Origin: an uncultured Acidimicrobiales bacterium
Lineage (GTDB): Bacteria; Actinomycetota; Acidimicrobiia; Acidimicrobiales; SZUA-35
DNA length: 64,000 nucleotides
Direction of reading: 5' to 3'
Assembly (NCBI GenBank): GCA_937922045.1
Contig: CAKZXA010000004.1
Coordinates: 106,878-170,877 of the forward strand
The position numbers and the translations under genes were made by a program. Shown piece after piece: positions 28,170 through 35,812 of the stretch. The notes beneath the pieces are model-generated. The model did not search any database, was not told the origin of the DNA, and saw nothing but the letters and a program-made list of their open reading frames with translations. Numbering within the stretch: position 1 is the first letter of the stretch; every line of letters begins with the position of its first letter.

Positions 28170-29177
28170 TCAGACTCCGATCTCAACCGGGGTTTCCGGA
28201 TAGTGGCACGCTACCTGATGACCGGGCGTGATCTCCTCAAGGGGCGGCTCGTCGGTGCGGCAGATGTCGGCAACCTTCCAGCACCTCGTGTGGAAACGAC
28301 ACCCGCCCGGAGGGTTCGAAGGGCTGGGAACGTCACCTTTGAGCATGATGCGCTCACCCCTGACGTGCTTGCGCGACGCCGGTACGGGAACGGCCGACAA
28401 CAGAGCCTTGGTGTAAGGGTGGGCCGGGCTTTCATACACGTCGGCACCGGCGCCGAACTCAACGATCTTGCCGAGGTACATGACTGCGACCCGATCCGAG
28501 ATATGCCGTACGACCGACAGATCGTGGGCGATAAAGAGGTAGGACAGCCCGAGCTCGTTCTGAAGATCCTCAAGAAGATTCACGACCTGGGCCTGAACCG
28601 ACACATCAAGAGCCGAGACAGGCTCATCGGCGATAATCAACGTTGGTTCCAAAGCGAGGGCACGGGCAATACCTATCCGTTGACGTTGACCACCCGAAAA
28701 CTGATGGGGATAGCGATTCACGTAGTTGGGGTTGAGGCCAACGACCTCGAGCAGCTCCTGAACCTTGGTCCGGTGCTTCGACTCGTCGACCACCCCTGGA
28801 TGGATATGCCAGGCTTCGGCGATGATGTTGTTCACCGTCATACGCGGGTTGAGCGAGGCATAGGGATCCTGGAAGACGACCTGCATGTCGCGCCGGGCCG
28901 CCCGAACATCAGACATGTCGGCCCCAACCAACTCCCTACCGAGAAACCGAACCGAGCCGGACGTCGCCTTCTCCAACCCAAGAACCGTGCGGGCCGTCGT
29001 CGATTTGCCACACCCTGATTCGCCGACCAGGCCAACGGTTTCGCCCCGGGCAACATCGAAACTCACACCGTCGACCGCCTGCACCTGGCCGACGGTTCGA
29101 CGCAGAACCCCCTTGGTGACGGGGAAATGCTTGACCAGGTTCGCTACCTCAAGAATGGGTTCACTCACCGAACGCAT
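28170..29177 (-). CDS. Peptide ABC transporter ATP-binding protein (DppF/OppF type)
   Basis: [51 protein letters not shown], oligopeptide C-terminal CRFHTRC. Start ATG 29177 or GTG 29168. Confidence 0.9.
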
Positions 29178-30144
29178 CCCTCCAGTGGTGACATGCAGTA
29201 GACCGGCCCGAGTCGCCAACAAATTCAAGCGTCGGTTCGACCTCGGCACAATCCGGCTGCTGATACGGGCAGCGGGGCCGGAAGGCACAGCCCGAGGGGA
29301 TTCTGAGCAGATCCGGTGGGTTCCCTCTGATGGGATTCAGGCGCTCATTGAGATCATCGAGACGCGGTATCGAGTTCATCAACCCCTCGGTATAAGGATG
29401 GTGAGGCTGATCGAAGATCTCGTCGATCGTGCCTTTCTCCATTGCCCGCCCCGCATACATCACCACAACTCGATCGGCCTGCTCAGCTACCACCCCGAGA
29501 TCGTGGGTGATCAGGACGAGACCCATGCCAAACTCGGCCTGCACGTTTTCGAGCAACTGCATGACCTGGGCCTGCACGGTGACATCGAGGGCGGTTGTCG
29601 GCTCATCGGCGATGAGCACGTCTGGATCCAAGGCCAGGGCCATCGCAATCATGACCCTCTGTCGCATGCCACCGGAGAACTCGTGCGGAAACGATCGATA
29701 CCGATTCGTCGCGTCGGGGATCTCGACCAACTCCATGAGTTCAACGGCGCTCTTCTTCGCCTCCTTCTTGGAGGCACCCCGGTGTTTGCGGAACATCTCG
29801 GAAATCTGCCAGCCAACCGAAAAGACCGGGTTCAGCGCTGAGAGAGCGTCCTGGAAGACCATGGCGATATCGGCGCCCCGAACCTTGCGGCGCTCGTCCT
29901 CAGCCATCGTCAGCAACTCACGACCCTCGAATCGCACCGAGCCTTTCGTGATGAAACCGGGCGGCGACGCAATCAGGCCCATGATGGCCTGGGCGCTCAC
30001 GCTCTTACCGCTACCGCTCTCACCGAGAATGGCCACGGTTTCTCGCCGATCGACCATGTACGACAAGCCGTTGACGGCACGCACCACACCGTCGTCGGTT
30101 CGGAACTCGACGTGTAGATCGTCGACGACGAGTAGGGGATCCAT
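29161..30144 (-). CDS. Peptide ABC transporter ATP-binding protein (DppD/OppD type)
   Basis: [61 protein letters not shown]. Start ATG 30144. Confidence 0.9.
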
Positions 30145-31058
30145 CACCGCTGCCTCGGGTCGAAGGCGTCGCGAAGCAGGTCGCCCAGGAGGATGAAAGC
30201 GAAGACTGCCATAGACAAAATGGCGCCGGGGAACAGCAACAGATACGGGTGGGTCTGGATCCGAGCCCTCGAGTCGGAGATGATCAGACCCCACGAGATC
30301 GATGGTTTCTGCAACCCAACGCCGATGAAGGTAAGCGTCGCCTCGGCCGCAATGACGACACCGAAGAAGATGGCCATGTACACCAGCAGAGGCGTCAAGG
30401 CATTGGGCAGAATGTGACGCCAGATGATTCGAAAGTCCGTGGCCCCCAACGCACGGGCGGAGTCGATGTAGTCGGCGTGTTTCACCGCGAGAACCGCCGA
30501 CCGTGTGAGGCGCAACATCGTCGTCCAGCTGAACACGATCAGGGCCAGGCTCAGCGTGGCGATGTTGCGGGTCTCGAACATTTGCAGCATCACAATGCTG
30601 CCGAGAACACCGGGGATGGCGAACCAAACATCGGTGATGCGAGAGATGATCGAGTCGATCCAGCCGCCGTAGTAGCCAGCGAGGGAACCGAAGATCAGGG
30701 CGATGATCGCACAGAACGTCGTGACGACGAAGGCGATCACGATCGAGACACGGGCACCATAGATCACGTTGGCATAGACGTCACGGCCGAACAGATCGGT
30801 ACCGAACCAGTGTTCCCGGCTGGGGAACATCAAGCCGTTGCGCTGATCTTGGGCTTCAGGGTCGAGGCTCGTGAACAGTTGGGGGAACGCCGCCATCGCA
30901 AGCAATACCGCAATGATGGTGATACAGATCCAGAAGAGCGGACGTCGACGGAGTTCGCGCCAGGCGTCGCTGCCCAGCGACCCTTCGCGAATCGCCGCGA
31001 GGTCCTCGTCTTCGATCGCGCCCTGATCCGCACTATCGAGCGTTTCCAGATCAGTCAT
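30144..31058 (-). CDS. Peptide ABC transporter permease (DppC/OppC type)
   Basis: FGTDLFGRDVYANVIYGARVSIVIAF, DSARALGATDFRIIWRHILPNALTPLLV. Start ATG 31058. Confidence 0.9.
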   Translation of the reverse strand: MTDLETLDSADQGAIEDEDLAAIREGSLGSDAWRELRRRPLFWICITIIAVLLAMAAFPQLFTSLDPEAQDQRNGLMFPSREHWFGTDLFGRDVYANVIYGARVSIVIAFVVTTFCAIIALIFGSLAGYYGGWIDSIISRITDVWFAIPGVLGSIVMLQMFETRNIATLSLALIVFSWTTMLRLTRSAVLAVKHADYIDSARALGATDFRIIWRHILPNALTPLLVYMAIFFGVVIAAEATLTFIGVGLQKPSISWGLIISDSRARIQTHPYLLLFPGAILSMAVFAFILLGDLLRDAFDPRQR

Positions 31059-31974
31059 AACGAATTCTCGGATCAAGAACGGCGTAGAGGATATCGACCA
31101 GCAGCGTGGTGAACATGTAGACCAGGATGATGAAGGTAGTGATTCCGACGACCGTTGTGCCTTCCTGGCGGACAACACCATCAAAGACAGCACCCCCAAG
31201 GCCCGGGATGTTGAAGACGGTCTCGGTCACGATCGCTCCACCCAACAGAGCGCCCAGATCGATACCGAGGTAGGTAACGACGGGGATCAGCGAGTTTCGC
31301 ATGGCGTGCACGCCAACCACGCGACCTCGGGTCAAGCCCTTGGCGGTGGCGGTGCGTACATAGTCGGCCCCCAGATTGTCGATGAGGCTGGAACGGGTTA
31401 GCCGAGCCACGTAGGCGAGCGACACCGAACCCAAGACCATGCCGGGCAGGAGATAGGAGATCCACCCCTGCTTGATGCCAGCCACGGGGAACCAGCCGAG
31501 CTTCAGGCCAAACGTGACCTGGGCCAGAAAGCCGAGGACGAAGATAGGAATCGAGATGACGGTCAGCGTTGAGACCAAAACCAAGGAGTCAAAGAATCCT
31601 CGCTGCCGGACGCCGGCCAAAATCCCGGCCAAGACCCCCAGGAAGACTTCGAAGACGAAGGCCACCGCAGCGAGCCGAGCCGTAATCGGCAAACGCTGCT
31701 TGATGATGTCGCTCACCGGCCGTCCCCGGAAGTTGGCACCGAAATCGCCTCTGAGGAGACCAGCCGCGTACTTGCCGTACTGCACCGGCAGCGGATCATC
31801 GAGGTTGTACTCCTCGATAAGCGCCTGGCGCACGCTTTCAGATTGGGCACGCTCGCCAGCAAGTGCTCGAATCGGATCGCCAGGCAAGGAGAACACCATG
31901 GCGAAGATGAGCATGGTGGCGAAGATGAAGACCGGGATCATCTGCAAAAGCCGACGGATGATATAGGTTGCCAA
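31051..31974 (-). CDS. Peptide ABC transporter permease (DppB/OppB type)
   Basis: MATYIIRRLLQMIPVF, DYVRTATAKGLTRGRVVGVHAMRNSLIPVVTYLGIDLGALLGGAIVTETVFNIPGLG. Confidence 0.92.
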   Translation of the reverse strand: MATYIIRRLLQMIPVFIFATMLIFAMVFSLPGDPIRALAGERAQSESVRQALIEEYNLDDPLPVQYGKYAAGLLRGDFGANFRGRPVSDIIKQRLPITARLAAVAFVFEVFLGVLAGILAGVRQRGFFDSLVLVSTLTVISIPIFVLGFLAQVTFGLKLGWFPVAGIKQGWISYLLPGMVLGSVSLAYVARLTRSSLIDNLGADYVRTATAKGLTRGRVVGVHAMRNSLIPVVTYLGIDLGALLGGAIVTETVFNIPGLGGAVFDGVVRQEGTTVVGITTFIILVYMFTTLLVDILYAVLDPRIRYD

Positions 31975-32039
31975 CCTCTCGTCCCCCTTGTGGTGGTTTC
32001 AGCGAACCGTTCGATGGGCGTTTACAACGACGAAAGACA

Positions 32040-32071
32040 AGCGGGCCGGCCCGACGTTGGACCGGCCCGCT
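32040..32071 (-). promoter_or_regulatory. Intercistronic GC-rich hairpin between SBP and permease genes
   Basis: AGCGGGCCGG-N12-CCGGCCCGCT, perfect 10-bp stem. Confidence 0.6.
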
Positions 32072-32096
32072 CGTACTACCAACGGACTACAAAGCG

Positions 32097-33806
32097 TTAC
32101 TCGCCTTCTTCTGCCTCATTGATGTCTCCGTAACCAACGACGTTGGCAAAGAAGTGGTTGTTGGCCTGACCGTTTTCGCCGATCGCGGCGTAGTTCCAGG
32201 CGTTGATGAACGAAGCGGCCGTAACCGGCTCGCCATTGTGGAACGTCCAACCGTTCTTCAGTACGATCGTCCACGTCTTACCACCATCATCGCTGGTGAT
32301 CGACTCGGCGACCTCGTTGTAGGGCTCGGTGGACTGGGGATCGAAATCGACCAGACCACGGAAGAGTGTGTCGAGAACCTTCGAACCCTCAGACTCATTG
32401 GAGTTTGTGGGGAAGAGATGCTCGGGCTCGGCAATACCGGTTGCAACATCGCCACCGGTGATCTCCGTGAAGTTCGCTCGACCGAAGGCTGTCACATACA
32501 CATTGTCGACCGTGTCGTTCCATGCGTACTGGTTCTTCGAGAAGTAGATCGGCATCACGGCGACGTCTTCGCAGACCATGTCTTCAGCAGCCTGGTAGAA
32601 CGGAATGGCGTCTTCCAGCGAACCGCCAGCGGCGGCTTCCTTGCCTTCGCCCAACATGGCGTCGAAATCAGCGTTGTCGTAGAAGGAGCTGTTGGAACCA
32701 ACGGGGGGCTGGTTGTACGAGGCGTAGAGCGGCTCGAGGAAGTTCAACGGCGATGGGTAATCCATGCCCCAACCAAGACGGAAAGGCCCGGTCATCTCGC
32801 CAGCGTCGAGCTTGGGAAGATACTCGGAGAACTCGAGGTTCTCGAAGGCGAAGTTCTCGATGCCGAGAACATCACGCCACTGGCCGGTCACAGCGGTGGC
32901 GATCTGCTCATGGCTGGTGCTGGTGTTGAACCACACGGTCAACGCTTCGTTGCCTAAGGCTTCGAGTCCGCCGAAGGCCTCAAAGGCTGCCTTTGCACCC
33001 TCGGGGTCGTAGTTCCAGTTGTCACAGACGGTGTCGCGAGAGCCAGCCAACGATGGTGGGATCACCGAGTGGGCCGGGGTACGGCTGCCGTCGAGGATCG
33101 CATCGATTAGCAGTTCACGATCGAGCGCCATCGAGAGCGCCTGGCGCAGTTCGAGCGGGTACTGGTCGTTGAGATAGCTGGGAAAGCCGTAGTAGTAAAA
33201 ACCGGTGTTTGGCGACTCGGCGAAACGGTCACCAAACTCGGTCTTGGCCGCGGCAATCTGTTCGGCTGGAACCGCCATCACAAAGTCGTTCACCCCAGCC
33301 TGGAGATCGAGGTAGGCGGTCGTGCTGGCGTCCTCGTAGATATTGAAGGTGACGCTATCGACATCGGCCGGATCGCTGCCTGCGTAGTCGGGATTGGGCA
33401 CGACCCTGATGGCGATGTCGTGGTCCCAGGCACCGTCCATCATGAACGGACCATTCCCGATCGGCATTTCTTCAAAAGCGGCAGGATCGTCGAATGCCGC
33501 TTCGGGCAGTGGATAGAAGGCGTTGTAGCTCAGCTGCAGCGGGAACTCGGCATCAGCGTTTTCGAGCTCGACCGTGAAGGTGTTGGCGTCGACCAGAGCG
33601 AGACCGGACAGACCCCCGTCCATGACCTCCGCGACCATCGCTGCGCCCTCATCGTCGGCAATCGATGCGTCGGTGTCGGCGTCTTCATCGTCGCCGGTTA
33701 CCTCATCGACAACGTCGTCGACAGCATCTTCAGCGGTGCAACCAGCGGCTACAAACGCGAGCGCCAAAAACGCGGCGATCAGCCTACGTGATCTAGTGAT
33801 TCTCAT
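32097..33806 (-). CDS. Peptide ABC transporter substrate-binding lipoprotein (family 5), apparently circularly permuted
   Basis: Lipobox FVAAGC; family-5 motifs present but in permuted order (VDANTFTVEL...NPDYAG...LRQALSMALDRE... precede AEPEHLFPTNSNE...LFRGLVDFDP...DGGKTWTIVLKNGWTFHNGEPVTAASF, which ends the ORF). Confidence 0.85.
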   Translation of the reverse strand: MRITRSRRLIAAFLALAFVAAGCTAEDAVDDVVDEVTGDDEDADTDASIADDEGAAMVAEVMDGGLSGLALVDANTFTVELENADAEFPLQLSYNAFYPLPEAAFDDPAAFEEMPIGNGPFMMDGAWDHDIAIRVVPNPDYAGSDPADVDSVTFNIYEDASTTAYLDLQAGVNDFVMAVPAEQIAAAKTEFGDRFAESPNTGFYYYGFPSYLNDQYPLELRQALSMALDRELLIDAILDGSRTPAHSVIPPSLAGSRDTVCDNWNYDPEGAKAAFEAFGGLEALGNEALTVWFNTSTSHEQIATAVTGQWRDVLGIENFAFENLEFSEYLPKLDAGEMTGPFRLGWGMDYPSPLNFLEPLYASYNQPPVGSNSSFYDNADFDAMLGEGKEAAAGGSLEDAIPFYQAAEDMVCEDVAVMPIYFSKNQYAWNDTVDNVYVTAFGRANFTEITGGDVATGIAEPEHLFPTNSNESEGSKVLDTLFRGLVDFDPQSTEPYNEVAESITSDDGGKTWTIVLKNGWTFHNGEPVTAASFINAWNYAAIGENGQANNHFFANVVGYGDINEAEEGE

Positions 33807-35080: not shown

Positions 35081-35812
35081 TCAGGCTACGACGGAGGCGA
35101 CGACAACCAGGTTGTCCTCGTAGCTGCGGGCTTGGGCGTCGAAGTCACCACCGCAGGTGATCAACGCCAATTGGCTCGTACCAGACCGAGCGAACAGCTC
35201 ATCGAAGGGCAGCGCCGACTTGGCGTAGTCGACGACCTCATCCACCACAAAGTTCGTGACCGACCCGTCGTTAAACGCCACGGAGAGTTGATCGCCTGGC
35301 TTGAGCCGTTCGAGGTAGCGGAACGCACCGTCCACGCCCTCTGAAGCGATATGGCCAGCGAGCACGGCCGAACCGGGCTCGCCTGGTGTTGGACCGTAGC
35401 GATACCAACCAACTTCGAGTGGAGAGGGAACCTCCATCTCACCCGTGGCGGTCACGCCCGATGCGATCACAGGCACCTGGTTGAGGTCGAGGCCGGGGAT
35501 GGTAATCGACAAGGGCTCGGGCTCGGTTCGGTTTGCGGCCTCAGCCACCTCGTCGAGGCTGGCCGCTGGCGGGAGAGCAGGGGCGGCGGCGAGAGCGCCA
35601 CCGACGTCGACCTGGAGGGCGTTTCCGGTCGACGCCGGTGGCTGTTTCTCCGCCGAGGACACTCCTTCGCTCGGCGGAGAGAAATCGACCATGTCGTCGA
35701 CCTGCTCCGAGCTTTGGCCGCATGCAGCGAGCAGGGCCATCATGGCGAGAAGGAGGGTTCTCACCAGGCGTTGCGCTGGGATAGCGCCAAAGCTTCGAAG
35801 AGTCGACGACAT
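35081..35812 (-). CDS. Class F-like sortase with lipoprotein-type signal
   Basis: AVLAGHIAS (His), LALITCGGDF (TLxTC Cys), ARSYEDN (Arg); N-terminal lipobox MALLAACGQ. Confidence 0.85.
   Translation of the reverse strand: MSSTLRSFGAIPAQRLVRTLLLAMMALLAACGQSSEQVDDMVDFSPPSEGVSSAEKQPPASTGNALQVDVGGALAAAPALPPAASLDEVAEAANRTEPEPLSITIPGLDLNQVPVIASGVTATGEMEVPSPLEVGWYRYGPTPGEPGSAVLAGHIASEGVDGAFRYLERLKPGDQLSVAFNDGSVTNFVVDEVVDYAKSALPFDELFARSGTSQLALITCGGDFDAQARSYEDNLVVVASVVA

Follow-up and report, generated by a model that had tools for sequence, protein, structure and literature searches.

A circularly permuted DppA/OppA-type receptor gene heads a DppBCDF operon in an uncultured Acidimicrobiales bacterium

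The window analyzed here is a 64,000-nucleotide stretch of contig CAKZXA010000004.1 from an uncultured Acidimicrobiales bacterium. On its minus strand, positions 32097 to 33806 form one uninterrupted ORF of 569 aa, with an ATG start and GGAGGAG upstream. It encodes a permuted family-5 solute-binding lipoprotein (32100 to 33806, with the stop codon at 32097 to 32099). The signal peptide, assigned from the sequence, spans residues 1 to 22 (33741 to 33806, minus strand) and is covered by a helix at residues 3 to 22 in the structural model. The lipobox VAAGC at residues 19 to 23, judged by eye, marks the protein as a lipoprotein with Cys23 as the predicted lipidation site; A22 and C23 are nearly invariant across 51 permuted homologues. 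The acidic, low-complexity linker that follows has about 40 residues (about 23 to 62; 33621 to 33740, minus strand) and is predicted to be disordered, with a pLDDT below 50 at residues 20 to 61. The core block (residues about 63 to 450; 32457 to 33620, minus strand) corresponds to the canonical protein from about residue 130 to the C terminus. Its Pfam match places residues 67 to 366 on profile positions 66 to 366. Within the core, Asp349 (32760 to 32762, minus strand) is aligned with the ligand-site Asp445 of Mycobacterium tuberculosis DppA, based on the alignment and on the residue-number offset from the structural alignment, and it is invariant in the 51 permuted homologues. The chain ends with the displaced canonical N-terminal block (N-block; residues about 451 to 569; 32100 to 32456, minus strand), which was delimited by homology searches and junction comparison and has the new C terminus GDINEAEEGE.

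The receptor gene is the first gene of a DppBCDF operon, linked to BPD permeases and oligo_HPY ATPases. The four genes behind it, all on the minus strand, encode a DppB-type permease (31051 to 31974; BPD_transp_1, 6e-36), a DppC-type permease (30144 to 31052; BPD_transp_1 and OppC_N), a DppD-type ATPase (29161 to 30144; ABC_tran and oligo_HPY), and a DppF-type ATPase (28170 to 29168; ABC_tran and oligo_HPY). A very stable GC-rich hairpin (32035 to 32074, minus strand; -39.1 kcal/mol, z -6.0) lies between the receptor gene and dppB. Such hairpins are frequent where a binding protein outnumbers its permease, and this one could be an attenuator or an mRNA stabilizer. A sortase-domain protein (PF04203) is encoded two genes upstream of the receptor (window positions 35081 to 35812, minus strand). 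An aldose-1-epimerase gene intervenes, and we saw no link between the sortase-domain protein and the receptor.

The original prediction, made from sequence alone, was that this single ORF encodes a circularly permuted family-5 solute-binding protein that kept its secretion signal, and that the C-terminal block, placed at 32100 to 32453, is the canonical N-terminal block. The window protein passes the SBP_bac_5 profile (PF00496) with 200.9 bits against a gathering cutoff of 32.4, in two stretches. It does not have the canonical linear order of that family, N-block and then core. Because the block order is reversed, we class the protein as a permuted variant. In a phmmer comparison with M. tuberculosis DppA (7jls), residues 457 to 564 matched chain residues 35 to 140 (82 bits, i-E 3e-22), and residues 66 to 449 matched chain residues 150 to 534 (159 bits, i-E 2e-45). 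The two alignments are in exchanged positions, and therefore the order swap is well past chance. HMMs built separately for the core and the N-block found the order C-N in the window protein and N-C in canonical relatives. The N-block alone matches 50 PDB sequences, and it is at the N-terminal end of the chain in all 50. Each half has its homologue within a single canonical protein, where the two come in the opposite order, the old termini are fused, and the new termini lie in a loop, as circular permutation demands. The window gene is a genuine circular permutation of a DppA/OppA-type receptor. The prediction therefore held, including the homology of the C-terminal block, which rests on the phmmer comparison, and the N-block coordinates, which were correct to within a few residues.

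We modeled the permuted chain with AlphaFold2 (AF2), using 51 permuted sequences, and obtained a pLDDT of 88.4 and a pTM of 0.83. Disorder is confined to the signal peptide and linker, and the displaced block has a pLDDT of about 90 to 98. The strands and helices of the displaced block come in the same succession as those of the N-terminal block in the model of a canonical sister, and the whole follows a rotated order. In an order-dependent structural alignment, only residues 60 to 453 of the permuted model fit OppA/DppA chains (Z about 27, 370 to 380 residues, starting from about 130 in OppA numbering), whereas the canonical sister model was aligned over its entire length, in more than 500 columns. 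This difference is the signature expected of a permutation. The core alignment places the protein in the cluster C fold; it belongs to family 5, cluster C, and does not have the cluster B (Type I) sugar-receptor fold. Structure prediction had been proposed as a check. By that check the chain folds confidently with its canonical elements rotated, although the placement of the N-block rests on no superposition. The model thus predicts that the permuted chain keeps the canonical two-lobe fold, with closure judged from confidence and secondary structure only. AF2 may lean toward canonical structures in its training data. The break falls in what we take to be the interior of domain II, away from the domain I/III cleft, going by the OppA boundaries in the literature.

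Permuted orthologues were found in two genomes of the same genus, and they are 68 to 69% identical to the window protein over the full length. Profile searches of the order and class raised the number of other genomes with the same permuted form to 12, giving a group of 13 with the window (group A). The members are 46 to 69% identical and have intact ORFs. In pairwise comparisons, with pairs that included ones 94%, 92%, and 88% identical, dN/dS was 0.01 to 0.34 in the core and displaced block alike, and dS was mostly about 1 or less. Therefore, both parts are under purifying selection. Nearly all permuted members with downstream sequence covered have dppB immediately 3', followed by dppC-D-F where these are covered. 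In a scan of genome contigs, the only true permuted relative was the group-A locus L079.

The nearest nonpermuted relatives of the window protein are the canonical receptors of two genomes, G492 (L169) and G498 (L160), which are sister to group A in the tree. They are its closest canonical match for both blocks, with 53% identity in the core and 67% in the N-block. The sisters precede the same dppB-C-D-F operon and occupy the same slot as the permuted genes. The DppB proteins are orthologues whether the group-A operon is permuted or canonical, and the two kinds are intermixed in their tree. Because the nearest canonical relatives share the operon slot and match both halves best, we conclude that the window gene was permuted in place. 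A tree built from the N-block only, with about 82 columns, does not recover group A as strictly monophyletic, and two members fall outside the clade.

The junctions can be read directly against the sisters, which have the C-terminal end ...GDINYTEIRVVP and start after the linker with ...PEGVFSTFIIEPEHLTP. The window protein fuses the old C terminus to the old N terminus as ...RANFTEITGGDVATGIAEPEHLFP. The cut falls in the canonical loop ...SIIAGYDEVNPAEGDPTAETLSGLAVVDD..., whose two sides became the new C terminus ...VVGYGDINEAEEGE and the new start after the linker, ...DGGLSGLALVDA. The loop is uninterrupted in G492 and G498 (NPAEGDPTAETLSGL). The signal peptide and linker remained at the front of the permuted gene. 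Three further points of the original prediction can be judged here. The new termini, predicted in an acidic surface loop, lie in the loop that reads ...GYDEVNPAEGDPTAETLSGL... in the canonical sisters; the proposed search of close relatives found both permuted orthologues and canonical sisters; and a misassembly is excluded by the same order in 13 genomes. Duplication followed by deletion is the standard account of circular permutation, and tandem duplication with later loss of the outer parts would give exactly the observed arrangement. This origin, also part of the prediction, is compatible with the data. However, no N-C-N or C-N-C intermediate was present among the loci examined, and so the step is inferred only.

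Some weak full-length hits had the permuted order and exposed a second, distantly related permuted clade, group B, which is about 27% identical to group A (27 to 28% for the window protein). Of the 395 class genomes that we sampled, about 51 have it, as do two genomes (G771 and G1002) from another class in the phylum. The former figure is a tally of matches that are long and contiguous; we confirmed 38 sequences, drawn from that and other searches, to be single ORFs. A search of a plasmid collection with the window protein found a third permuted receptor, group C, in Subdoligranulum variabile (Bacillota; OY725879.1, positions 112338 to 114128; L186:4677-6467). It is 52% identical over aligned columns to a canonical receptor (L191) on a gut contig deposited as phage. 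Because group C is one unannotated record, an assembly fault is not excluded there. The trees require two order changes to account for A and B, and a third once group C is included. An AU test rejected an A+B clade (p 5.6e-4). In a second set of AU tests, with 41 rows and a simpler model, A+B (2e-11), A+C (7e-37), and B+C (2e-30) were all rejected as clades. The breaks of all three groups are in the same loop, between the N-block end and the strand VkavDdxTfxVxL, and the junction anatomy is alike. Separate origins are shown, and permutation likely arose independently at least three times at this homologous loop, with A and B in Actinomycetota and C in Subdoligranulum. An old and recurrent event, probably with three origins in one loop, and an unchanged transporter operon go beyond what had been predicted.

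Outside Actinomycetota we made only plasmid, phage, and pattern scans, which limits the estimate of spread. Used as a query, the Subdoligranulum protein had no relative in a scan of viral contigs. Against plasmids and phages it matched only itself and sequences hit in two pieces; those of the latter that we read (L190 to L194) were canonical. Three other candidates were rejected: a Halorussus match listed as one long match (L080) has the canonical order, a long permuted-order match in Phyllobacterium (H27) spans two adjoining canonical genes, and a Sinorhizobium match (H28) is canonical. Phyllobacterium pT1293a (L187, 1 to 5811) has four tandem canonical family-5 receptor genes before oppB. 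Such tandem arrays yield false "permuted" tblastn matches, and they are possible raw material for permutation.

Several loci deserve mention in their own right. Two genomes, G002 (L079 and L184) and G087 (L141 and L142), each have two permuted receptors, one from group A and one from group B; L079, L184, and L141 each have their own dppB-C-D-F set behind them, and L142 has matches to dppC-D-F only. A long-branch group-A permuted receptor (L177:6464-8359, G588:C4) has no dppB-F match in 7.6 kb downstream and is possibly an orphan receptor. The group-C receptor has a Ser/Ala/Thr/Glu-rich C-terminal tail that resembles a lipoprotein linker and is possibly the relic of a duplicated copy. A canonical family-5 receptor (L025, G005:C47) is split between two frames, with its N-block and core in separate ORFs, indicating a frameshift, a pseudogene, or a sequencing error.

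We considered whether the locus could be explained otherwise. The window and most of its relatives come from draft assemblies split into many contigs, which leaves room for an assembly artifact or a decaying pseudogene. However, the same order recurs in dozens of separate assemblies, with intact ORFs and low dN/dS in both blocks. This explanation is refuted for groups A and B and is all but excluded overall. The gene could instead be a chimera that lost its own N-block and gained that of another solute-binding protein gene at its 3' end. Natural tandem genes, such as the four in a row in Phyllobacterium, could recombine, and the two group-A members outside the clade in the N-block-only tree point the same way. 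Against this, the halves of the window protein, L079, L172, and L174 share their nearest canonical pair, G492/G498, and the N-block is even closer to that pair than the core is. We therefore regard a chimera as very improbable.

The break in one loop in all three groups might also reflect a single ancient permutation that A, B, and C inherited in common, with the canonical order restored repeatedly afterward. Yet every pairwise clade was rejected by the AU tests, and each group has canonical sisters, so that many exact reversions would be required; we give this scenario very little credence. Finally, the permuted protein might fold but have left peptide import, to serve as a sensor, a receptor for a nonpeptide ligand, or an adhesin. 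The ligand is not known, and the group-A receptor of G588:C4 lacks an adjoining dppB-F match. However, nearly all members with covered downstream sequence directly precede dppB, and the ligand-site Asp is invariant. Another role is thus unlikely.

The explanation we prefer is a working cluster C, family 5 peptide-type ABC-importer receptor that was permuted in place, in a family with at least three independent origins of this form. As a whole, we consider it likely. The permutation, its conservation, the purifying selection, the operon continuity, the separate origins, and the confident predicted fold are shown; peptide uptake and a shifted tether as the functional effect are inferred, as is duplication-deletion. 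In this model, the old C terminus would be tied to the old N terminus with few residues between, and the chain would be reopened in the loop that joins N-block and core, leaving the signal peptide, lipid-anchor Cys, and disordered linker in front. Peptide capture and the usual docking on DppBC are expected, because the fold, cleft, and ligand Asp are retained, and the lipid tether would exit from a different surface loop. The simplest reading is thus an ordinary venus-flytrap receptor for peptides with only its tether moved. In Escherichia coli DppA, the ends of the dipeptide are held by Arg383 and Asp436, residues that also touch the DppB scoop (PMC12136057). From the motif, we infer that Asp349 is the counterpart of Asp436.

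The window protein resembles M. tuberculosis DppA (Rv3666c; 7jls, 8wd9) and canonical cluster C receptors in its family, both blocks, core fold, ligand Asp, lipoprotein nature, and Dpp operon. Unlike M. tuberculosis DppA, it has the N-block at the C terminus, joined old termini, and new termini and tether at the canonical loop of residues about 125 to 150. It has the same operon as its sisters in G492 and G498, which are not permuted. We found no report of permuted OppA/DppA or cluster C receptors in the open-access literature searched, and the sole precedent found there for natural permutation of an ABC-importer receptor is Treponema pallidum Tp0684/MglB-2, termed "Type Ic/cluster Bc" (PMC4990184). 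MglB-2 is likewise naturally permuted and a lipid-tethered ABC-importer receptor. However, it binds sugar (glucose) and belongs to cluster B, a different fold class; its permuted segment is poorly conserved, and its chain makes an additional crossing of the hinge. The window type is a cluster C, peptide-type receptor with both halves clearly homologous and several origins. The authors of that study suggested that permutation might ease tethering strain or suit export (PMC4990184).

A bolder reading is that recurrent permutation at one loop is adaptive and puts the tether on another face of the receptor, changing transporter docking or cell-wall reach. Any advantage is conjectural, and on balance we lean somewhat against this reading. 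If it is true, cluster C receptors include a widespread, overlooked permuted topology. Alternatively, the loop may be merely permissive, if the old termini are close in the fold. Recurrence in lipid-tethered receptors makes the tether idea testable, not proven. A large family of peptide receptors, usually labeled "substrate-binding protein," has common permuted members, and annotation by linear profiles conceals such changes in topology. With at least three likely origins, one break, and canonical sisters in the same operon, these receptors form a natural replicated experiment on how permutation arises, which also bears on whether the position of the receptor tether matters for import.
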